Shown: positions 546 to 25,428 of the stretch, piece after piece
Numbering within the stretch: position 1 is the first letter of the stretch
How the letters are laid out: each line of letters starts with the position of its first letter
Source of the DNA: Flavobacteriales bacterium
GTDB taxonomy: Bacteria; Bacteroidota; Bacteroidia; Flavobacteriales_F; PHOS-HE28
Reading direction: 5' to 3'
DNA: 64,000 nt
Assembly: GCA_020852835.1 (NCBI GenBank)
Contig: JADZAC010000036.1
Location: 22,948 to 86,947 of the forward strand
Position numbers and translations under genes: made by a program
Notes under the pieces: generated by a model
Databases searched by the model: none
Seen by the model: the letters and a program-made list of their open reading frames with translations, nothing else
Told to the model about the DNA's origin: nothing

Positions 546-746
546 TCAGGTTGGTTCGTTGGCGATCGGGTGGGTGATTGGCACGTGGGCAGGGCCCGCT
601 GCCGGGGCCGGATCATCCAGCAGGATGCGCACGGCGGGCGAACGGTCGTCGTCATATTGCCCCTTGCGCACCGAACGGATGAAGGCCAGCAGGAAGATCC
701 CGGCCATCAGGGTGCTGATCGTGAGCAGGAGGAAAATGACGCTCAT
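546..746 (-). CDS. ccoS: cbb3-type cytochrome oxidase assembly protein CcoS
   Basis: 66 aa, MSVIFLLLTISTLMAGIFLLAFIRSVRKGQYDD; CcoS signature, between ccoI and ccoN. Confidence 0.93.
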   Translation of the reverse strand: MSVIFLLLTISTLMAGIFLLAFIRSVRKGQYDDDRSPAVRILLDDPAPAAGPAHVPITHPIANEPT

Positions 747-816
747 CTGACAATTGAAGCAGGCAGCGAAAATGAACTGACCAATGTTACCTCATGTTGA
801 TGGTAGTTATGGAAAT

Positions 817-834
817 AACTGACATTTGTCAGTT
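817..834. promoter_or_regulatory. Candidate Crp/Fnr-family operator upstream of ccoS-ccoN
   Basis: AACTGACA-TT-TGTCAGTT, perfect 8-bp inverted repeat in the ccoI/ccoS intergenic gap; a degenerate TAnnTTTG-like box (TAACATTG, minus strand 782-789) lies downstream. Confidence 0.5.
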
Positions 835-872
835 GAAATGGCCTTGCTTTGGCAGGTCGCACCGCAGCAGCC

Positions 873-3281
873 TTAACCCAGGGTGCGCCGGGCGGCCCAC
901 CAGGTCGAGAGGGTAACGAAGCCCACCACGCTCACGCTGCTCAGGGGCATGAGGATGGCCGCGATCAGCGGGGTCATGTGGCCGGCCACGGCCAGGGCCA
1001 CGCCGGTGATGTTGTAGCACAGCGAAATGGCCAGGCTGGCGATAACGATGCGATGGGCCTTGCGGGAAAGCGCCAAAAAGCCCGGCAGGCGGTGCAGGGC
1101 GGCGGCATCCATGATGGCATCGCTGGAGGGGGTGAGGGCGGCGCTGGTCTCGGTGACCGTTACGCCCACATCTGCTTGGGCCAACGCCCCGGCATCGTTC
1201 AGGCCGTCGCCCACCATCAGCACCCGGGCGCCCTGTTGCTGCTGCTGGCGCACAGCTTCCTGCTTGTCCAGGGGTGAGCATCCCGTACGGATGGTTTCGG
1301 CGGCAAACAGCCCGGCCAGTTCGGGGTCCACTTGCACATCCCCGGTGAGCAGGCCGGTGCGGTAGTAGCCTTGCAGGGCCTGTACCGCACGGGCGATCCC
1401 GCTGCGGGGCTGCTTGCGGATGCTGAAGTAGCCGCGGGGTGCGCCATTGATGGCCAGGTGCACCTGGGCTTCACCCTTGCTGCGGGGCCGGTCCACCGCG
1501 CGGCAAAAGGCGGCCGAGCCCACCCGCACCGTGGTGCGGTCCACGGTGGCGAGGATGCCCTGGCCCGCGTGTTCATGCGCCCCGTATACCCGGCATGCCG
1601 GATCGGCGGCCTGCTTGAGCTCCTGGGCCAGCACGCTGCTCAGCGGGTGGGTGCTGTTGCGCGCCACCGCATGGGCCAACGCTTGCTCGCGGATGTCCAA
1701 GGGCGTGCCTACCCACTGCACCCGGTGGGCTTCACGCGCGGTGAGCGTGCCGGTTTTGTCGAACACCACGGTGCTGATCTGCGCCATGCGCTCCACCACC
1801 TCCGTGCTGCGCAGGAACAGCCCGCGCCGGCCCATCAGCCGCACGGTGTGGCCGTAGGCAAAGGGCATGCTCAGCGCCAGGGCGCACGGGCAGGCCACAA
1901 TGAGCACTGCTGTCACCACCGGCCACACCTGGGCCGGGTCGCGGCCCCACCAATACAATCCGGCCCCAACGGAGATCAGCAGTACGGCCAAGGTGAAACG
2001 CCGCGCCAACGCATCGATCAGCCGCGGCATGGCGGGGCGGCCATGCGCGGTTTCCTGCTCGGCCCACAGCTGCTTCAAGCGGCTGTCGGCAAAGGTGCGC
2101 AGCACCTCCAGTTCAATGGCGGCACCGCGCTGGCGGCCCCCGGCCTTGATCGTGCCGCCCACGGCTTTGCGCACCGGCAACGGCTCCCCGGTGATGAAGC
2201 TGTTGTCGATGTGGGCGGTGCCTTCCCGCAGGATGGCATCCACCGGCACCAGCTCTTGGTCGCGCACCAAAATGCGGTCGCCCGGCTGCAGGGCGGCCAC
2301 CTTCACCGCTTCTTCGCCCTGGTCCGTGCGCCGCAGCACCACCAAGGGCAGAAAGTCCTCCAGGGCCCGGTCGAAACGCAAGGCGCGGTAGGTGTAGGCC
2401 TGGTACCAGCGGCCGATCAGCAGGAAGAAGAGCAGCCCGGCGAGGGAATCAAAATAGCCGGGGCCGGTACCGCTGAGCACGTCGTACAGGCTGCGGGTCC
2501 ACAGTGCCACGATGCCCAAGGCGATAGGCTGGTCGATGTTGGCCGTACGGCTGCGGATGCCCGCCCAGGCGCTGCGGAAGAAATCGGTGCTCAGAAAGAA
2601 GACCACCGGGATGGAGAACAGCACGGTGAGCCATTGGAAACCGGTTTTCAGGCCGGCCTCGCCATCGGCACCCAGGTATTCCGGGATGGCGAACAGCATG
2701 GTGTTGCCGAAGATGAATCCCGCCACCCCCACGCGGATCAGCAGCAGGTGCGGCAGCTCGCGGCGCTTGCCCCCACCGCCGGTGACCTGGGGGCCATATC
2801 CGATGCGCCGCAGCAATTGCACCAATTGCGGCAGGGAAAGCGTTCCCTCGCGGAAGGTGACCGTGAGCTCCTTGTCGCTGAAGGATACGCGCGAGCGGAT
2901 GATGTCCGGGTTTATCCGGCTGAGGTTCTCCAACAGCCAAATGCATGAGCTGCAGTGCATCTGCGGCACATGCAAGCGCACCCGTGTGATGCCCTCCTCG
3001 CTGAACTCCACCAGTTTGGAGCGCACCTCTTCGAGGGCGAACAGCTCGGCGCGCTGCTCGTCCACGCTCGCGGCCTGTTTCACTCCGGGTTGCCGCTCCA
3101 GCTCGTAGTAGTTGCACAAGCCCGCCTCATTCAGCAGGTCGAACACCACCGTGCATCCCTGGCAACAGAAATCTTTGCCTTGGTGCACGCGGTGCTCCCC
3201 GCCGCAGGGGTCGCCGCAGTGGTAGCAGGTGGAGGTATCGGCAGGAGACTGGCTGGCCACGGGTGCAAAGAGCGGGAACAA
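873..3281 (-). CDS. ccoI: Heavy-metal translocating P-type ATPase (cbb3 oxidase copper delivery)
   Basis: 802 aa; DKTGTLT, CPCALALS, GDGLNDAGAL, N-terminal CYHCGDPC and CSSCIWLLE motifs; next to ccoS. Confidence 0.95.
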   Translation of the reverse strand: MFPLFAPVASQSPADTSTCYHCGDPCGGEHRVHQGKDFCCQGCTVVFDLLNEAGLCNYYELERQPGVKQAASVDEQRAELFALEEVRSKLVEFSEEGITRVRLHVPQMHCSSCIWLLENLSRINPDIIRSRVSFSDKELTVTFREGTLSLPQLVQLLRRIGYGPQVTGGGGKRRELPHLLLIRVGVAGFIFGNTMLFAIPEYLGADGEAGLKTGFQWLTVLFSIPVVFFLSTDFFRSAWAGIRSRTANIDQPIALGIVALWTRSLYDVLSGTGPGYFDSLAGLLFFLLIGRWYQAYTYRALRFDRALEDFLPLVVLRRTDQGEEAVKVAALQPGDRILVRDQELVPVDAILREGTAHIDNSFITGEPLPVRKAVGGTIKAGGRQRGAAIELEVLRTFADSRLKQLWAEQETAHGRPAMPRLIDALARRFTLAVLLISVGAGLYWWGRDPAQVWPVVTAVLIVACPCALALSMPFAYGHTVRLMGRRGLFLRSTEVVERMAQISTVVFDKTGTLTAREAHRVQWVGTPLDIREQALAHAVARNSTHPLSSVLAQELKQAADPACRVYGAHEHAGQGILATVDRTTVRVGSAAFCRAVDRPRSKGEAQVHLAINGAPRGYFSIRKQPRSGIARAVQALQGYYRTGLLTGDVQVDPELAGLFAAETIRTGCSPLDKQEAVRQQQQQGARVLMVGDGLNDAGALAQADVGVTVTETSAALTPSSDAIMDAAALHRLPGFLALSRKAHRIVIASLAISLCYNITGVALAVAGHMTPLIAAILMPLSSVSVVGFVTLSTWWAARRTLG

Positions 3282-3328
3282 TGCGTGACAGGTGCCTGAC
3301 GGAAATCAGCTGTACGGCCCGGCTGCGG

Positions 3329-3859
3329 TCAGTAGTACGGTGCGCAGAACAGGTACACCAGCACGCCGGTGATGCTCACGTAGAGCCAGAGCGGAAGGGT
3401 CCAGCGGGCCATGCGCCGGTGCTGATCGAAGCGCTTGCCCAAGGCGTGCACCAGGGTGATCAGCACCATGGGCACCAGCACCACGGAGAGCAGGATGTGC
3501 GAAATGAGCACCGGGAAGTAGAGCCACCCCAGCGTGCCGCCGTACTGCACCGAGGGAAAACTGCTGTGCTGCACCACGTAGCTGATCAGGAAAAGCACGC
3601 TGATGCCCACGGCCGCCACCATCATCCGGCGGTGCAGGTCCACGCGCTTGCGCCTGATGGCCGCCCACGCGCCCAGCAGCATCACCACGGCACAGGCGTT
3701 GAGCGTGGCGTTCACCTTGGGCAGGGTTGCCGGCGCCAGGCCGGTAACCTGGATGAATTGGGGGCCCAGGTACGTCAGGGACACCACGCCGAGCAGCGCA
3801 AGGCTGGCCGTCCATGCCAACGTGGTGCCCAAGCGGCCGCTGAAGATGGTCATGGTCAA
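3329..3859 (-). CDS. DUF420 family membrane protein
   Basis: 176 aa multi-TM protein next to SCO and caa3 oxidase genes; H-rich pattern typical of DUF420. Confidence 0.8.
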   Translation of the reverse strand: MTMTIFSGRLGTTLAWTASLALLGVVSLTYLGPQFIQVTGLAPATLPKVNATLNACAVVMLLGAWAAIRRKRVDLHRRMMVAAVGISVLFLISYVVQHSSFPSVQYGGTLGWLYFPVLISHILLSVVLVPMVLITLVHALGKRFDQHRRMARWTLPLWLYVSITGVLVYLFCAPYY

Positions 3860-4554
3860 TGGGCTCCCGCCCCGCGTGCCCGTTCGTTCTCCTCGTAGAG
3901 CAGCATTTTCAGGTCGGTCACCAGGTCGCGCATGGCATCGGTGCTGGTGCCGTCGTACATGCCGCGGATGTGGCGCTGCTTGTCCACCAGTACAAACTGG
4001 GGGGAGTGCACGAACAGCTCGGCCGAGGCGCTATCGGTGCCGGCGCTCAGCAGGTAGCCCAAGTTTCCTTGGCGGTAGATGTCGGCGGCGTTGCCCGTGA
4101 GGAATTTCCAGCGCGCTGGATCGGCCTGCAGCCGTTTGGCATAGGCCTTCAGTACCTGGGGCGTATCGTGCCCGGGGTCCACCGTGTGGCTCAGGAACAG
4201 CACGTCCTTGTACTGCGGCCCGTCCAGTTCCAGTTGCAGCTGCTGCATTTGCACGCTCATTTTCGGGCAGATGCTGGTGCAGCGGGTGAAGATGAAGTCG
4301 GCGATCAGCACCTTGCCTTCGGCGTCCTGGTCGCTGAAGGGTTGCCCGTTCTCGTCGATGAACCGGAAAGGAGGCACAGTGAAGTACGCTGTGTCGCCGG
4401 GGGCGTTCACCTCGTGGCGGCCCAAGTAAGGAAGGTTGGTATAGTGGCTCTTGCCGCCCCGGCCCAAGAGGATGGCACCGGGCACCAGCACCAGCAGGAT
4501 GATCAACAGGATGATCTTCCTGGGCTTGCTGGCCACGGCCGGTTCGCGGTTCAC
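3856..4554 (-). CDS. SCO1/SenC family copper chaperone
   Basis: 232 aa; FTRCTSICPKMSVQMQQLQ, SHTVDPGHDTPQVLKAYAKRL. Confidence 0.93.
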   Translation of the reverse strand: MNREPAVASKPRKIILLIILLVLVPGAILLGRGGKSHYTNLPYLGRHEVNAPGDTAYFTVPPFRFIDENGQPFSDQDAEGKVLIADFIFTRCTSICPKMSVQMQQLQLELDGPQYKDVLFLSHTVDPGHDTPQVLKAYAKRLQADPARWKFLTGNAADIYRQGNLGYLLSAGTDSASAELFVHSPQFVLVDKQRHIRGMYDGTSTDAMRDLVTDLKMLLYEENERARGAGAH

Positions 4555-4919
4555 AGGAATAACTTCAGGACGTTGTGCACGTACGTCGCTTCCCAGATCA
4601 GGATGAAAACGGCATACATCAGGAACAGCCCGTAAGGTATCAGGATCAGCCCGCGGATGTTGCGCCGCTCATCGCCCAGGTGCATGAAGGTCATCACGAT
4701 GTAGGATGCCTTCACCAAGGTGAGCATGATGAAGACCCACTTCACCCAGTGCCAGGCGTTGGGGAAGAGGTTGGTCCAGAACACCCCCAGCAGCACCTCC
4801 ACGGTGGTGACCACCGAGAGCAGGATGGTGACGAAGTAGATCTTCTTGCGGATGGCACGGCCCTGCTCCTCGCTGTGGCCTGCCCCAAGGCTGTATTCAA
4901 TGATGTCGTCGCGTTCCAT
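4551..4919 (-). CDS. Cytochrome c oxidase subunit IV family protein
   Basis: Internal start MERDDIIEYSLGAGHSEEQGRAIRKKIYFVT in the 160 aa ORF; 3-TM Bacteroidota COX4 type. Confidence 0.85.
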   Translation of the reverse strand: MERDDIIEYSLGAGHSEEQGRAIRKKIYFVTILLSVVTTVEVLLGVFWTNLFPNAWHWVKWVFIMLTLVKASYIVMTFMHLGDERRNIRGLILIPYGLFLMYAVFILIWEATYVHNVLKLFL

Positions 4920-4983
4920 TGCTGTGCGCCGTAGCCCGGCGGTGGCGGTTAGGAGTTCCTCGGTGGAAGTTGGGCGGTTGGGA

Positions 4984-5832
4984 TCAGACCAGGTAGAAGA
5001 AGGTGAACACGAACACCCACACCAGGTCCACAAAGTGCCAGTACAGGCCGGCCTTCTCCACCATTTCGTAATGGCCGCGGCGGTGGAACACGCCTTTTAC
5101 GGCTTGGGCCAGCACCACCAGGTTGAGGATCACCCCGGTGGTGACGTGGAAGCCGTGGAAGCCGGTAATGAAGAAGAAGAAGTTGGCGTACGCGGGCGGG
5201 CCGTACTCGTTCTCGGTCATGTTCGCCCCGCTGGTCACATGCACCGCATTTTGGTACAGCTTGTAGGCTTCGGGGCCGCTGACCACCTCGGAAGAGCGCG
5301 GGCTGCCGATGGACATGGCAAAGGTGGCCGGGTCCATGGCCTCCCCGTGGTGCGGGTTGTCCGCCAGGTAGGCCGTGCGCCCGTCGGCCAAGCTTACCCG
5401 GGCGTGGCTGCCGTGGATGAAGTGCGACCATTCGAAAGCCTGGGAGCCCAGGAAGAAAAGGCCGCCCAGCACCGTGAGGAAAAGCCACTTCACCACGCCC
5501 TTCTTGTCCATGCGGTGGCCGGCCTCCACGGCCAACACCATGGTCACCGAGCTGATGATCAGGATGAAGGTCATCAAGGCCACGTACATCAATGGATAGC
5601 TGCCGTGCAGCCCCGGGAAGGAGTTGAACACCTCCTCGCCCACGGGCCAGCTCATGCCGGGCCCCAGCGAGTGCCGGGCAAAGCCGTAGGCGCAGAGCAG
5701 GCCGGTGAAGGTGAGGGCGTCGGAGACCAGGAAGAACCAGATCATCAACTTCCCGTAGCTCATGCTGAACGGGGAACGCACGCCGCCCCACAGGGCAGCA
5801 CCGCTAAGGTTTTTGGAGGCTTCGCCGGACAT
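4984..5832 (-). CDS. Cytochrome c oxidase subunit III (caa3-type)
   Basis: 282 aa; MSYGKLMIWFFLVSDALTFTGLL, ITGFHGFHVTTGVILN, WHFVDLVWVFVFTFFYLV. Confidence 0.95.
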   Translation of the reverse strand: MSGEASKNLSGAALWGGVRSPFSMSYGKLMIWFFLVSDALTFTGLLCAYGFARHSLGPGMSWPVGEEVFNSFPGLHGSYPLMYVALMTFILIISSVTMVLAVEAGHRMDKKGVVKWLFLTVLGGLFFLGSQAFEWSHFIHGSHARVSLADGRTAYLADNPHHGEAMDPATFAMSIGSPRSSEVVSGPEAYKLYQNAVHVTSGANMTENEYGPPAYANFFFFITGFHGFHVTTGVILNLVVLAQAVKGVFHRRGHYEMVEKAGLYWHFVDLVWVFVFTFFYLV

Positions 5833-19468: not shown

Positions 19469-19945
19469 GTGCCCATGCCCGAAGCGACCGCCGCCGTTGA
19501 GAGTTCCCACCTCCTGTTGTTCTTCCACAGCGTGCTGCGCTGGGTCTTGGTGGCCATGGTGGCGGTGGCGGGCTTTGCGGCGTTGGCCGGGGCCGTGCGG
19601 AAAAGCCCGCTGATGAACTGGCACCGTGGTGCCGCCATCTGGGCCATGGTGCTCTGCCATGTGCAATTGGCCTTGGGCATGCTGCTCTACGGCACGGACA
19701 TCGCATCGGGAACCTTCCGCCGGATGACCCCGGATGCGGCGCGTTACTGGGAGCTCGAACATGCCGGCCTGATGCTCTTGGCGATCGCCCTGGTCACTGC
19801 GGGCCGAATGGCCAGCAAGCGGGCCCGGACCGAAGAAGGAAAGCAACTCCGCGTGGCCATCTTCTACCTGGCTGCACTGGTGCTGCTCTTGTTGAAGACG
19901 CCTTGGTGGTTCACCGCCATGGGCGAAGGACGTGGTTGGATATGA
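19469..19945 (+). CDS. Small multi-TM membrane protein
   Basis: 158 aa, about 4 hydrophobic helices with conserved-looking His residues (FFHSVLRW, NWHRGAA, LCHVQLALG). Confidence 0.65.
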   Translation: MPMPEATAAVESSHLLLFFHSVLRWVLVAMVAVAGFAALAGAVRKSPLMNWHRGAAIWAMVLCHVQLALGMLLYGTDIASGTFRRMTPDAARYWELEHAGLMLLAIALVTAGRMASKRARTEEGKQLRVAIFYLAALVLLLLKTPWWFTAMGEGRGWI

Positions 19946-20048: not shown

Positions 20049-21275
20049 ATGATCGAACCCAAGGACAACCGTTTATCTGCTGAGAGCGCCGTGCTCGTCG
20101 GCCTGGCCACCGAACGCCAATCCGCGGCACAGGTGGAGGAATACTTGGATGAACTCGCTTTCCTCGCCCACACTGCCGGCATCGCCACGGTGAAGCGCTT
20201 CATGCAGAAATTGCAGCGCCCCGACGGCAAGTTCCACATCGGCTCAGGCAAGCTCGCCGAGGTGAAGGCCTGGATGGAGGAACATGCGCCCAAGGCCTGT
20301 GTGATCTTCGATGATGAACTGACGCCCGCCCAGCAGCGAAACGTGGAGAAGGAACTGGGGCGCCCCGTGCTCGACCGCCCGCGCCTGATCCTGGACATCT
20401 TCGCAGGCCGTGCACGGACTGCCCACGCCAAGACCCAGGTGGAGCTGGCCCAGTACGAGTACATGCTGCCGCGCCTCACCAAGCTGTGGACCCACCTGGA
20501 ACGCCAGCGCGGCGGCACGGGCACACGCGGCGGTGCCGGTGAAAAGGAAATTGAGACCGACCGCCGTTTGGTCCGCGACCGCATCAGCCTCCTTAAGGCG
20601 CAACTGCGCGACATCGACAAGCAGAAAGCCACCCAGCGCGGCAACCGCGGCAAATTGGTGCGCGTGGCCTTGGTGGGCTACACCAACGTGGGCAAAAGCA
20701 CGCTGATGAATTTGCTGAGCAAGAGCGACGTCTTCGCCGAGAACAAGCTCTTCGCCACGCTGGACACCACGGTGCGCAAAGTGGTCTTAGGCAACCTGCC
20801 CTTTCTGCTCAGCGATACCGTGGGCTTCATCCGCAAGCTGCCGCACCAGCTCATCGAAAGCTTCAAGAGCACCCTGGATGAAACCCGCGAGGCCGACCTG
20901 CTGATGCACGTGGTGGACATCAGCCACCCGCAGTTCGAGAGCCAGTACCACACCGTGCGCCAAACCCTGGAGGAGATCGGCGCCGGCGGAAAGCCCACGA
21001 TCGTGGTCTTCAACAAGATCGACGCTTACCGGCCCGCCCCGCACGACCCGCACGACCTGGCGCCCAAGCGTGAGGACCAATTTTCATTGGCGGAATTGCA
21101 ACAAACGTGGATGGCCCGTATCGCCGGGGATGAGGAGGCCATCTTCATCTCCGCCGTCCGCAAGGACAACATCGACGGGCTGCGCAAGCTGATGTATGAC
21201 CGTGTAAAAGAGATCCACCTGGCGCGCTATCCCTACGAGAAGGACCTGTTGTGGCAGGAATGGACGGTGGAGTAG
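20049..21275 (+). CDS. hflX: GTPase HflX
   Basis: GGAGEKEIETDRRLVRDRISLLK, VALVGYTNVGKSTLMN, LFATLDTTVRK, VFNKIDAY; start MIEPKDNRLSAES. Confidence 0.95.
   Translation: MIEPKDNRLSAESAVLVGLATERQSAAQVEEYLDELAFLAHTAGIATVKRFMQKLQRPDGKFHIGSGKLAEVKAWMEEHAPKACVIFDDELTPAQQRNVEKELGRPVLDRPRLILDIFAGRARTAHAKTQVELAQYEYMLPRLTKLWTHLERQRGGTGTRGGAGEKEIETDRRLVRDRISLLKAQLRDIDKQKATQRGNRGKLVRVALVGYTNVGKSTLMNLLSKSDVFAENKLFATLDTTVRKVVLGNLPFLLSDTVGFIRKLPHQLIESFKSTLDETREADLLMHVVDISHPQFESQYHTVRQTLEEIGAGGKPTIVVFNKIDAYRPAPHDPHDLAPKREDQFSLAELQQTWMARIAGDEEAIFISAVRKDNIDGLRKLMYDRVKEIHLARYPYEKDLLWQEWTVE
21181..21275 (+). repeat. hflX 3'-end, copy 1 (in intact gene)
   Basis: Aligns without gaps to 21836-21930 (offset 655), roughly 87% identity by eye; separated by hicBA. 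Confidence 0.85.
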
Positions 21276-21297
21276 GAACCCTTCCGAAGTGGAACGG

Positions 21298-21528
21298 CTA
21301 TTCTTCCAAGGCGGAAACGAATGTTTCCTGGGTGACTTGGATCTCGTTCAAGATCTTGCGGATCAACGGACGGCTGATGTCTTGGCCCTTGTGGTGCGAC
21401 AACGTGGTATAGCGCCCATCGGGATGGCGGTAAAACACGTGGCTGCCTTTCTGTCTGATCACTTGAAAACCCCATTTCAGCAGAACACGCTCGAAGGTCC
21501 GCGCATCCACAATGGGGAGCTTGCTCAT
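21298..21528 (-). CDS. hicA: HicA-family mRNA interferase toxin
   Basis: 76 aa; LLKWGFQVIRQKGSHVFYRHPDGRYTTLSHHKGQDISRPLIRKIL, dsRBD-like HicA motif. Confidence 0.9.
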   Translation of the reverse strand: MSKLPIVDARTFERVLLKWGFQVIRQKGSHVFYRHPDGRYTTLSHHKGQDISRPLIRKILNEIQVTQETFVSALEE

Positions 21529-21752
21529 ACTGCCACGGACAAAGTTTGCAAGCCCACAAATTCGGGAAGTGCCTTGATGTCGGCTGCGTTCATCTCCTCC
21601 AAGCAGAGTTCCAATACCTCCTTCAAGTTGGCCTGCAGTTCATCCAGCCCTTTGGCCTGGGTATGTGCGCCGGGGATGCTGGGGACCATGCCGATGTACA
21701 GGCCTGTCTCAGGGTCACGTTCAATATGGGCGGTGAACTGCAGATGGCGCAT
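21525..21752 (-). CDS. hicB: HicB-family antitoxin
   Basis: MRHLQFTAHIERDPETGLYIGMVPSIPGAHTQAKGLDELQANLKEVLELCLEE; overlaps hicA by 4 nt. Confidence 0.9.
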   Translation of the reverse strand: MRHLQFTAHIERDPETGLYIGMVPSIPGAHTQAKGLDELQANLKEVLELCLEEMNAADIKALPEFVGLQTLSVAV

Positions 21753-21835
21753 GTGCTGCACTTTTTTCAAAGATAGGCCATTCCGGGCCAACAAACCCGG
21801 CGATCCTGCCGCTCGCAGTGATGGCTTCGACCAGC

Positions 21836-21930
21836 TGCGCAAGCTGATGTACGAGCACGTGAAGGCCATCCACCTGGCGCGCTATCCTTACGAGAAGGAC
21901 CTGTTGTGGCAGGAATGGGCGGTGGAGTGA
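21836..21930 (+). pseudogene. Duplicated hflX 3'-end remnant
   Basis: Encodes LRKLMYEHVKAIHLARYPYEKDLLWQEWAVE* versus LRKLMYDRVKEIHLARYPYEKDLLWQEWTVE* in hflX. Confidence 0.85.
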
Positions 21931-21945
21931 AGGTGACCATGGACT

Positions 21946-22926
21946 TCACTCACCTTCATCCAGCCATTGGAATACTTTCATGAGCACTTCATGCCAATGG
22001 TTCTCCCGTTGCTCGTCGAAGTAGTTGTGGTCATAGCCTGTAAATGCCATGACCGAGAGGCATGGTACATACGGTTGCAGCAAAGGCCAAGCGTAACAGT
22101 TGGGGCAGCTCGTGTCAGCATTTCCGTACACGACCAATGTTGGAACAGTTGCTTGCGAGATGCTGATGACCGCAGGCTTTGAGAAGCTTTGGAAGGAGCT
22201 GTAATAGTCGCCCATGTACGTGCTGTCCGCTTGGGCAGGATCCAGCAATGCCTGGGCCAACTTGACCCCATCGTGGTCCATGTTCCCTGCACAGGCATAG
22301 TCGCGGTCCACCAATGCGGCCATACGCCCTAACGGATCGGCGCTCATGAACACAACCTTGTCTATGCCGGGCGCGCCCGTGAGTTCCGCCGCGATGCGCG
22401 CACCTTGGGAATGGCCAACTACGTAAATGCGCCCGATTCCTGGGCTTTCCCTCAAAGCCGCGATCAATTCTTCATAAGCATTAACGTAGAAGCCAAGGTT
22501 GTTGTGGGCCTTGTATGCGGCGGGCGGCATCCCTGTGGCCGGATCCAGATAGTAGTACTTCTCATCAAGTTCAGAGGTATCCGCGATAGCCGGTATCCCG
22601 GGCTTGGACAAGAGGAGGAAGTTGTAATGGGCTTGATCGAAGAGCTGCCTTGGAACCAGCGGGTAGAACACGCCGCCCATGCGTGTGTACAACGGAACCG
22701 GTTCCGATCCGGGAATGAAGATGAGCAGCGGTTTTCCATTGCCCGCCTGGCCGATGAACAGACCTTCCAGTACCATGTCCGGCGTGGACAGATGGAACGT
22801 GGCACCAAGGTCCGGATGTTGCGTGAGATGGATGCTTCCGAGCGTCTGGACCTGTGCGGTGAGCCGTGCAGGAATGGCCAATTGCAGGGCGACAAGAAAA
22901 TGGGAAGCGAAGGAAGTGAGTTTCAT
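21946..22926 (-). CDS. Alpha/beta hydrolase (DUF3089-like), secreted
   Basis: YVVGHSQGARIAAELTG nucleophile elbow; VVYGNADTSCPNC; GYDHNYFDEQ; signal peptide MKLTSFASHFLVALQLAIPARLTAQ. Confidence 0.7.
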   Translation of the reverse strand: MKLTSFASHFLVALQLAIPARLTAQVQTLGSIHLTQHPDLGATFHLSTPDMVLEGLFIGQAGNGKPLLIFIPGSEPVPLYTRMGGVFYPLVPRQLFDQAHYNFLLLSKPGIPAIADTSELDEKYYYLDPATGMPPAAYKAHNNLGFYVNAYEELIAALRESPGIGRIYVVGHSQGARIAAELTGAPGIDKVVFMSADPLGRMAALVDRDYACAGNMDHDGVKLAQALLDPAQADSTYMGDYYSSFQSFSKPAVISISQATVPTLVVYGNADTSCPNCYAWPLLQPYVPCLSVMAFTGYDHNYFDEQRENHWHEVLMKVFQWLDEGE

Positions 22927-23145
22927 TCCTTGGATGAACCGCGAATATCCGCCATTCAAGCCAGATCCGGATGCAGTGATCCGTTGAATGCATGGTCCAT
23001 CGGGCTACGGTATATGGGCACATCCTTTGGGCCGCTTTGCTTCTCGATGATCAATGCCGGGAGGATACCAATGCGAAGGCAATCCGGTTCCATCAGACCG
23101 GTGCCCCACAACAGACATACTTTCGTGCCCGGTTTCCTGTTGGAC

Positions 23146-25428
23146 ATGGCGAAGGGCAAGAAGAGCGGGCGGGGCAAGGCAGGAAAGTCGTCCGGAGGGG
23201 CGAAGGTGCTCTGGAAAGTGTTGTTCCTGCTGCTCGCAGCGGCGTTCATCGGTGTGTTCACCTTGATCACCCTGGTGCGCAAGGACGTCTTCGGCAAGCT
23301 GCCTTCCACAGAAGAACTTGCGGCGGTGCGCAATGAGGAGGCCAGCTTGATCCTGGCTTCCAATGGGGCAGTGATCGGCAAGGTCTTCGCCGAGGAGCGC
23401 ACCAACGTGCGCTGGAAGGACCTGCCCACACATGTGGTGGACGCGCTGGTCTCCACCGAGGACCAGCGCTTCTTCGAGCACAGTGGCGTGGACGCCTTCA
23501 GCTATGTGCGCGTGTTCTTCCGCACGTTGTTGGCCCGCGACCGCAGTGGGGGCGGCGGAAGCACTATCTCGCAGCAACTGATCAAGAACCTCTATGGCCG
23601 CGATAGGCACGGACTGCTCACCGTGCCGGTGAACAAGATCAAGGAAGCATTGGTGGCGCAACGCTTGGAGCAGGTGTACAACAAGGAGGACATCATCACC
23701 CTCTACCTCAACTCGGTGCCCTTCGGCGAGAATGTGTACGGCATTGAATCCGCCGCGGAACGCTTCTTCAGCAAACCTGCATCGCAATTGAAGGTGGAGG
23801 AGGGCGCGGTGCTCATCGGCATGCTCAAGGCCAACACCGGCTACAACCCGCGCCTGCACCCCGAAGCGTCCAAAGGCAGGCGCAACCAGGTGCTGGCGCT
23901 GATGGCCGGCAATGGGAAGCTCACCAATGCCGAGCGCGACAGCCTGCAGGCCTTGCCGCTGGGGCTGCGCTACGCCGGGGCAGGGAAGTTCGACGACTAC
24001 GGTTACTTCAATGCACGCGTGGAGCAGCAGGCGCGGGCGGCGCTGGCCAAGCTCAAGAAGAAGGACGGTTCAGCCTACGACCTTGAGAAGGACGGACTGC
24101 GCATCCACACCACGCTGGACACGGCGCTGCAGCAAGCGGCATTGCGCGCAGTCGCCAAACAGCTTTCCATCATGCAACCCAAGCTGGACCGCGAGCTGAA
24201 GGCGCGCGGAACCCGGAAGGAATGGGAGAAAGCCAAAGGGAAGAAGGCCGATCTGGCGTGGAAGCGGAACGAACGGGCCGTGCGCGATGTGTTCACCTGG
24301 GATGATGCACCGCCGGACAGCATCAGCTACCGCGACAGCCTGTGGCACTACCACCGCATGCTGCAAGGCGCTTTCCTGATGGTCGATCCCTCCACCGGAA
24401 AGGTACGTGCCTACAGCGGCGGCAATGATTTCCGGACGCTGCCCTACGATCAGGTGCAAGGCCGAAGGCCCGTGGCCTCCACCATCAAGCCGCTGATCTA
24501 CGCCGCCGCGCTGCGCAAGGGCTTTGAACCATGCACCTACCTCAACAACGAGGTGAAGAGCTATCCCGAGTACGAGGGTTGGACCCCGCAGAACTTCGAG
24601 AAGGACACCACCGGCGGCCAAGTAGCCTTGTGGTATGCGCTTGCACATTCCATGAACGTGCCCACCGTGGACCTGTATTTCCGCACCGGTGCCGATACGA
24701 TACGCGATACGTTCAAGGCGCTTGGCCTGCCTACGGGCGGTGTGGACAAACCCGCGTTGGCCTTGGGTGCAGCCGACTTGTCGTTGCAGGAACTGGTGCA
24801 GGCGTACAGCGCCTTTGCCAACAACGGACTTACGCGCGGGCTGCAGCTTATTGAGAAGATCACCGATGCACAGGGCCGCGTGATCTACACGGGGAAAATG
24901 GCGCCCGCGCGCCGTGCCTTTGATGAGGAGGTGGCCACTACCATCACCGCCATGCTGCGCCGCGCGGTGGACAGCGGCACGGGGACGGCCATGCGCTCCC
25001 GCTTTGGCGTTCGCACGGCATTGGCGGGCAAGACGGGCACCTCGCAGGATTATGCCGATGCCTGGTTCGTGGCCTATACGCCCGGCATCGTGGCGGCCAC
25101 CTGGGTGGGCGCGCGCGACCCCTCCGTACACTTTGGCAGCAGCTTGGGCACAGGCTCGCAACTGGCACTGCCCATCATCGGCGGCACGCTGGCGGAGGTG
25201 GAGCGCTCCGATGCCCTGCGCCGGAAATACTTCAGGACATTTGATGCAGCGGTAGATCCGGTGGCCATGGATTGCGATCCCAGGCGCAAGGGGACATTGC
25301 TGGAGCGGGCTTTGGACGTGTTCTTCCGCCCGGATGGTGGGCCAGAGGGCAAGGACAAGGAGATCAGCAGGCCGGAGCAGGAAAAGCAGGACGGCTTTTT
25401 CCGCAAACTGTTCCCCAAGAGGCGGTGA
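23146..25428 (+). CDS. Penicillin-binding protein 1A (bifunctional transglycosylase/transpeptidase)
   Basis: ALVSTEDQRFFEHSGVD, GGGGSTISQQLIKNLYG, RRPVASTIKPLIY, LAGKTGTSQDYADAWF. Confidence 0.95.
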   Translation: MAKGKKSGRGKAGKSSGGAKVLWKVLFLLLAAAFIGVFTLITLVRKDVFGKLPSTEELAAVRNEEASLILASNGAVIGKVFAEERTNVRWKDLPTHVVDALVSTEDQRFFEHSGVDAFSYVRVFFRTLLARDRSGGGGSTISQQLIKNLYGRDRHGLLTVPVNKIKEALVAQRLEQVYNKEDIITLYLNSVPFGENVYGIESAAERFFSKPASQLKVEEGAVLIGMLKANTGYNPRLHPEASKGRRNQVLALMAGNGKLTNAERDSLQALPLGLRYAGAGKFDDYGYFNARVEQQARAALAKLKKKDGSAYDLEKDGLRIHTTLDTALQQAALRAVAKQLSIMQPKLDRELKARGTRKEWEKAKGKKADLAWKRNERAVRDVFTWDDAPPDSISYRDSLWHYHRMLQGAFLMVDPSTGKVRAYSGGNDFRTLPYDQVQGRRPVASTIKPLIYAAALRKGFEPCTYLNNEVKSYPEYEGWTPQNFEKDTTGGQVALWYALAHSMNVPTVDLYFRTGADTIRDTFKALGLPTGGVDKPALALGAADLSLQELVQAYSAFANNGLTRGLQLIEKITDAQGRVIYTGKMAPARRAFDEEVATTITAMLRRAVDSGTGTAMRSRFGVRTALAGKTGTSQDYADAWFVAYTPGIVAATWVGARDPSVHFGSSLGTGSQLALPIIGGTLAEVERSDALRRKYFRTFDAAVDPVAMDCDPRRKGTLLERALDVFFRPDGGPEGKDKEISRPEQEKQDGFFRKLFPKRR

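Follow-up and report, generated by a model that had tools for sequence, protein, structure and literature searches.

How does a small toxin-antitoxin (TA) operon come to lie between two copies of the 3′ end of hflX? This question is raised by a stretch of DNA of 64,000 nucleotides, here called the window, which belongs to the 3.44 Mb draft genome of a Flavobacteriales bacterium (G000). The other genomes with which it was compared are likewise drafts.

The double hflX tail and the enclosed HicBA cassette

The hflX gene (20,049 to 21,275, forward strand) is intact and encodes a protein of 408 aa, in which the Pfam domains GTP-bdg_N, GTP-bdg_M and MMR_HSR1 score above cut-off and which shares 75 to 96% amino acid identity with HflX of relatives across the genus. 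The end of the gene is repeated further downstream in direct orientation: positions 21,181 to 21,275 and 21,836 to 21,930 align without gaps at an offset of 655 and are identical at 83 of 95 nucleotides (87%), just as the original prediction had estimated. The strongest match between the tails in a BLASTN comparison of the window with itself covers 102 nt at 88% identity (E = 3e-33; proximal side 21,172 to 21,273), and in a repeat search the similarity was found to run further upstream at lower identity (21,153 to 21,273 and 21,808 to 21,928; 121 nt, 83%). The proximal copy (21,153 to 21,275, forward strand), recovered by both searches, is part of the intact gene. The distal copy (21,808 to 21,930, forward strand), recovered by repeat search and alignment, is a scar that ends in TGA and is followed by a flank known from the relative G031. 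Between them lies a cassette of about 530 bp (21,276 to 21,807), which is missing in G031, where a lone tail leads into the flank of the window. Further downstream, an alpha/beta hydrolase gene follows on the reverse strand (21,946 to 22,959, alternative start at about 22,926; Abhydrolase_1), which has a counterpart of 96% identity adjoining the hflX stop in G031. The right edge of the interval, as defined by the spacing of the two genes in genomes of the genus, is a forward-strand gene (23,146 to 25,428) which we take to be pbp1A-like from our own reading of the protein rather than from a family scan. The gene upstream of hflX (19,469 to 19,945) shares 58% identity with its counterpart in G031 and 73% with that in G028, and hflX itself is nearest to G031; judged from this differing affinity in sequence, a recombination border upstream of hflX is possible.

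Two genes were recognized in the cassette, both on the reverse strand. The toxin gene hicA (21,298 to 21,528) encodes 76 aa and matches PF07927 with 58.9 bits (cut-off 27; E 5e-16). It is overlapped by 4 nt by a hicB-like antitoxin gene of 75 aa (21,525 to 21,752), assigned by its position upstream of hicA and by domain scores just under the cut-offs (UPF0150, 24.6 against 27.3 bits; HicB_lk_antitox, 22.2 against 27 bits). The start of this gene is likely the ATG at 21,752; the longest hicB frame (114 aa, 21,525 to 21,869) begins within the distal hflX tail, in antisense to it. The module shares with HicAB type II TA systems the HicA domain above cut-off, the two overlapping genes and the upstream antitoxin gene, and differs from them in the HicB partner falling under the family cut-offs; it is a putative TA module. 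A candidate promoter of the Bacteroidota type, with the pattern TTTG-N16-TATCTTTG, is located within the cassette (21,768 to 21,795, reverse strand) and is the sole match in the 64 kb, with 0.23 matches expected by chance. The element TATCTTTG is likewise present upstream of TA genes in G018, G023 and G028. Homology to hicBA of other loci spans about 21,300 to 21,779, and the borders of the cassette vary among hicBA loci.

Besides hicA and hicB, neither a further convincing gene nor a transposase or integrase was seen between the tails by inspection of open reading frames and domain search of the cassette. The inverted pairs listed by the repeat search include none with arms at the two ends of the cassette, as a transposon would have, no tRNA gene is present anywhere in the 64-kb window, and a distant BLASTN search of a plasmid collection with the whole region returned zero matches. 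The original prediction had likened the cassette to integrative elements that act in tRNA genes, a comparison that is not supported here, with an insert of about 530 bp being too small for a recombinase.

The hflX-pbp1A interval across the genus

Comparison of the regions downstream of hflX in sister genomes revealed a one-tail, cassette-free site. In the nearest relative, G031, a single hflX tail is joined, without hicBA, to the downstream flank of the window (AGGTGACCATGGA...) and then to the same hydrolase gene. The single tail and shared flank in G031 support the placement of the HicBA cassette at or near the hflX 3′ end in the original prediction, and the cassette sits exactly there. We consider it probable that the insertion at the hflX 3′ end consisted of a naked HicBA operon, about 530 bp long with its own candidate promoter, antitoxin and toxin, and that it was accompanied by duplication of about 100 to 120 bp of the target. 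The single-tail state of G031 could also be a secondary deletion between tails.

The gap between hflX and pbp1A measures 25 to 200 bp in most of 45 genomes of the genus, and enlarged gaps often house TA modules of unrelated families. A HicA-type module different from that of the window is present in G002, PIN-type modules are present in G004 and G066 (with one more in G029, recognized by eye only), and ParE-type modules in G018, G023 and G028. In G018 and G023 a second hflX tail follows immediately after the ParE-type module. The cassettes of the window, G018 and G023 share this scar, and therefore one type of scar encloses two unrelated kinds of cargo in three cassettes. A double tail without hicBA had been named beforehand as the observation that would speak against insertion; it occurs literally in G018 and G023, where the tails enclose a TA module other than HicBA, so that the idea of insertion is extended rather than ended. 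In G018 (L032, 3180 to 3738) a PIN-type module lies directly past the second hflX tail, which places two TA modules in tandem between hflX and pbp1A. The ParE-type module of G028 has no visible second tail, and the assembly is interrupted at this point between two contigs (end of L044, start of L034) that overlap by 127 bases. The overlap consists of hflX tail and flank and points to a branching assembly graph; the break possibly reflects a mix of strains with and without the ParE-type cassette. An assembly artefact was considered as the cause of the double tail of the window and is unlikely because the copies differ by 12% and the layout recurs in two further genomes.

The direct order of the two tails would also be expected if hflX had once been duplicated in tandem and TA modules had later entered the remnant. 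Neither a cargo-free double tail nor a longer second hflX copy was found in the 45 genomes, and the same scar occurs at two other genes, mfd and nuoF (see below), which makes this explanation hardly credible. When the double tail was sought beyond the genus, only the genome of the window and G023 gave two hflX tail matches in a class-level sample of 295 genomes, searched with a 48-residue query of weak sensitivity.

The two tails of the window differ in their affinities. The sequence DRVKE in the proximal tail is shared with G031 and G032; the corresponding residues are EHVKA in the distal tail and ERVKA in many other genomes. The 5′ part of the proximal tail matches G031 and G032; that of the distal tail carries states common in other lineages and most resembles the second tail of G018 (47 of 51 positions), followed by G023 (45 of 51), and the 3′ end of the distal tail and the flank match G031. 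Over 33 codons the tails differ by about 5.5 synonymous and about 6.5 non-synonymous changes, which does not bear out the earlier description of the differences as synonymous in type. One of the changes in the distal tail replaces N by G at a residue that is invariant in 42 of 42 functional tails. The ratio of non-synonymous to synonymous changes is 1.0 for distal tails and 0.92 between species, 33 codons being too short to gauge relaxed constraint.

The original prediction had suggested that one tail came from a diverged donor, and the distal copy is indeed odd in its 5′ part. A history in which cassette and distal tail were acquired together from a species with a double-tail locus, by homologous recombination within the hflX tail, would leave a distal copy that is a mosaic of donor and native sequence, in agreement with its G018-like 5′ part, its G031-like 3′ part and flank, and the agreement of the proximal 5′ part with G031 and G032. 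Only about 50 bases are informative, most of the supposed donor states are at the same time the most frequent ones in the genus, so that they could be ancestral, and the hicBA of the window was not found at hflX in any other genome of the genus; we regard this history as possible but somewhat doubtful. The G031-like 3′ end and flank leave room for an old self-duplication as well: a distal tail in which the ancestral state persisted, together with a later loss of the cassette from G031 by recombination between tails, would suit the sequence too. The two histories are inseparable because about 50 bases are too few and the tests of constraint are uninformative. A donor origin is compatible with target duplication in the donor. 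The resemblance of the distal 5′ part to other lineages is not predicted by simple self-duplication, and it counts against the reading of the locus as a target duplication.

Direct repeats at other TA loci and gene ends

In order to survey TA loci in general, each fetched locus was compared with itself and was scored as flanked when a direct repeat of at least 30 bp, spanning at most 1.6 kb, enclosed the toxin gene. By this definition 24 of 86 TA loci of the genus are flanked (HicA 5/21, ParE/RelE-like 11/30, PIN 7/30, HigB 1/5), a count that includes the three hflX cases from which the survey started and in which the loci are partly non-independent. None of 30 acetyltransferase loci is flanked (Fisher p = 4e-4 against TA loci), and neither is any of 270 random windows, drawn from few contigs, mainly around hflX and from the window (p = 1e-16). 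HicA loci from many phyla were found to be flanked in 16 of 75 cases. The repeats around TA loci have a median length of 85 bp (range 33 to 180) and a median identity of 91%, and the insert between them, with a median length of 678 bp, is about the size of one TA operon. Where a long open reading frame overlaps a repeat, the overlap is often at its 3′ or 5′ end. About 72% of the TA loci are without a repeat under this criterion, which detects fresh duplications only; such loci may be older, decayed, or have arrived by another route.

Scars of the same kind were observed below two further genes, presumably mfd and nuoF, names that were read from the protein sequences rather than obtained by a family scan. 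All 14 tail copies below hflX, mfd and nuoF are in direct orientation. They begin 70 to 324 nt before the stop codon and end between 31 nt before and 23 nt after it, and the duplications at gene tails are 49 to 293 nt long. The starts of the copies are free and their ends are pinned near the stop, which fits target duplication filtered for gene integrity, unlike the action of a recombinase with a fixed core.

In G000 itself an array below mfd (L316, G000:C1:1-9000, about 550 to 5790 from the mfd end, reverse orientation) was resolved by domain scan and tail comparison into a REase_II-like GHKL gene, a C5 cytosine methylase gene, a RhuM-like gene, an mfd tail, a PIN module and another mfd tail. 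Some of the cargo between tail copies is not TA, which counts against insertion with target duplication as a mode of TA cassettes. Three mfd tail copies are present in G025 (L317, G025:C162:1-9343), with an SLFN_AlbA_2 protein and other genes between them, and two partial nuoF tail copies lie 1.3 to 1.7 kb downstream of nuoF in G027 (L321, G027:C120). HigBA is located downstream of mfd in both G023 (L318) and G004 (L328), and a second mfd tail (164 bp, 98% identity) was seen only in G023. The tail match of G023 ends 31 nt before the mfd stop, and the last residues of Mfd therefore seem to be encoded by the insert. The clean one-tail relative is demonstrated at hflX only; when an empty nuoF site was sought with joined flanks, the nuoF half proved conserved in many genomes, and the downstream flank, taken from G031, was adjacent to it nowhere else.

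These copies bear on two other ways of insertion. Site-specific integration, in which an integrase supplied in trans would act on the hflX 3′ end in the style of elements at tRNA genes, would explain that gene 3′ ends are targeted, that the gene is restored and that the same genes are reused, and the 3′-end target left intact is a feature shared with integrative elements at tRNA and other gene 3′ ends. The cassette differs from these in having no integrase and no constant att core, the starts of the tails at the three genes ranging from 70 to 324 nt upstream of the stop. Moreover, the duplications at each gene vary widely in length and start, hicBA loci differ in their cassette edges, and some repeats lie at gene 5′ ends, so that an integrase in trans appears highly improbable.

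Homology-facilitated illegitimate recombination would start from a donor fragment in which gene and TA module are adjacent without a repeat, the fragment recombining homologously within the gene and being joined illegitimately inside the tail of the recipient. Such donor-like adjacencies are known for hflX in G028 and for mfd in G004, the same genes are targeted repeatedly, and the distal copies have varied upstream starts, with the other junction near the stop, all of which would agree with this process. It leaves the first insertion at a locus unexplained, however, and it demands a donor of the same species for the 98%-identical mfd copies of G023; in the window, the foreign-looking tail is the distal one, not the proximal one. 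We consider it rather unlikely.

Proposed route of insertion and relation to known systems

Insertion with target duplication is supported by the double tail, the one-tail relative without the cassette, the reuse of the site by unrelated TA modules, the enrichment of repeats at TA loci, the variable length of the duplication and the recombinase-free cassette. In the proposed course of events, the copy on the gene body would keep hflX whole, and the copy past the cassette would be the scar that leads into the original downstream DNA. No dedicated recombinase would act; the likeliest origin may be break repair by the host, where the patch between the breaks would be duplicated through a pair of separated nicks or by template switching, and alternatively a one-sided homologous crossover may be combined with an illegitimate join at the other side. 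With the coding end restored by the duplication, insertions at gene ends would survive. The TA module would then be maintained through addiction and resist loss, and the repeats could later allow RecA to delete, exchange or stack cassettes.

A comparable mode has been attributed to restriction-modification (RM) systems. Nobusato and coworkers in 2000 (Gene 259:99) and Furuta and coworkers in 2010 (NAR 38:2428) reportedly described the insertion of RM gene complexes with long target duplication. RM systems insert with long and variable target duplication on the order of 100 bp (PMC3874152, PMC3031569), and the passage of PMC3874152 on this mode, which cites Nobusato 2000 and Furuta 2010, concerns RM systems and does not name TA systems. 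The loci analysed here share with it a small addictive operon, the lack of a linked mobile element and a long, variable duplication on the order of 100 bp, the direct target repeats measuring 102 to 121 nt at hflX in the window and 33 to 180 nt around other TA loci. The cargo at hflX differs in being a type II TA module, HicBA, rather than an RM system, and repeated stacking of cassettes at the same gene ends is a further difference. RM-like cargo is found in the same genome, where the REase_II-like gene and the C5 methylase gene lie between mfd and a tail copy. What is novel relative to RM insertion is the TA cargo and the stacking; the mode itself is already described.

Outside RM systems, a mycoplasma AAA-ATPase/subtilisin-like TA pair lies between direct repeats that its authors read as a recombination scar (PMC8562856), a brief mention that comes without a survey or target-gene analysis in that account. 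Transposed genes of Arabidopsis often have flanking repeats, according to the title of PMC2869330; the likeness lies in the repeats at moved genes, and the difference is that these are eukaryotic. A published account or survey of TA insertion with long target duplication was not found in a literature search that covered subscription journals thinly.

Similar repeats at about a quarter of the TA units tested in the genus suggest that these spread by the mode so far described for RM genes. A more far-reaching proposal, which we put forward as speculative and rather doubtful, would place TA, RM and other small operons of defence-like character in one general class of cassettes that need no recombinase. 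They would enter the ends of housekeeping genes by long target duplication and stack in arrays, and the gene tail would act each time as a portable homology arm for RecA exchange between species, resembling integrons without an integrase.

The movement of chromosomal TA modules between genomes without a mobile element has long called for an explanation. Should about a quarter of TA modules retain a long target duplication, the scar would be a direct marker of insertion, target and orientation, and the mechanism could be tested in the laboratory. TA and RM systems would, if this is true, be united under one mode of spread, which would help to explain why unrelated TA modules cluster at the same gene ends.
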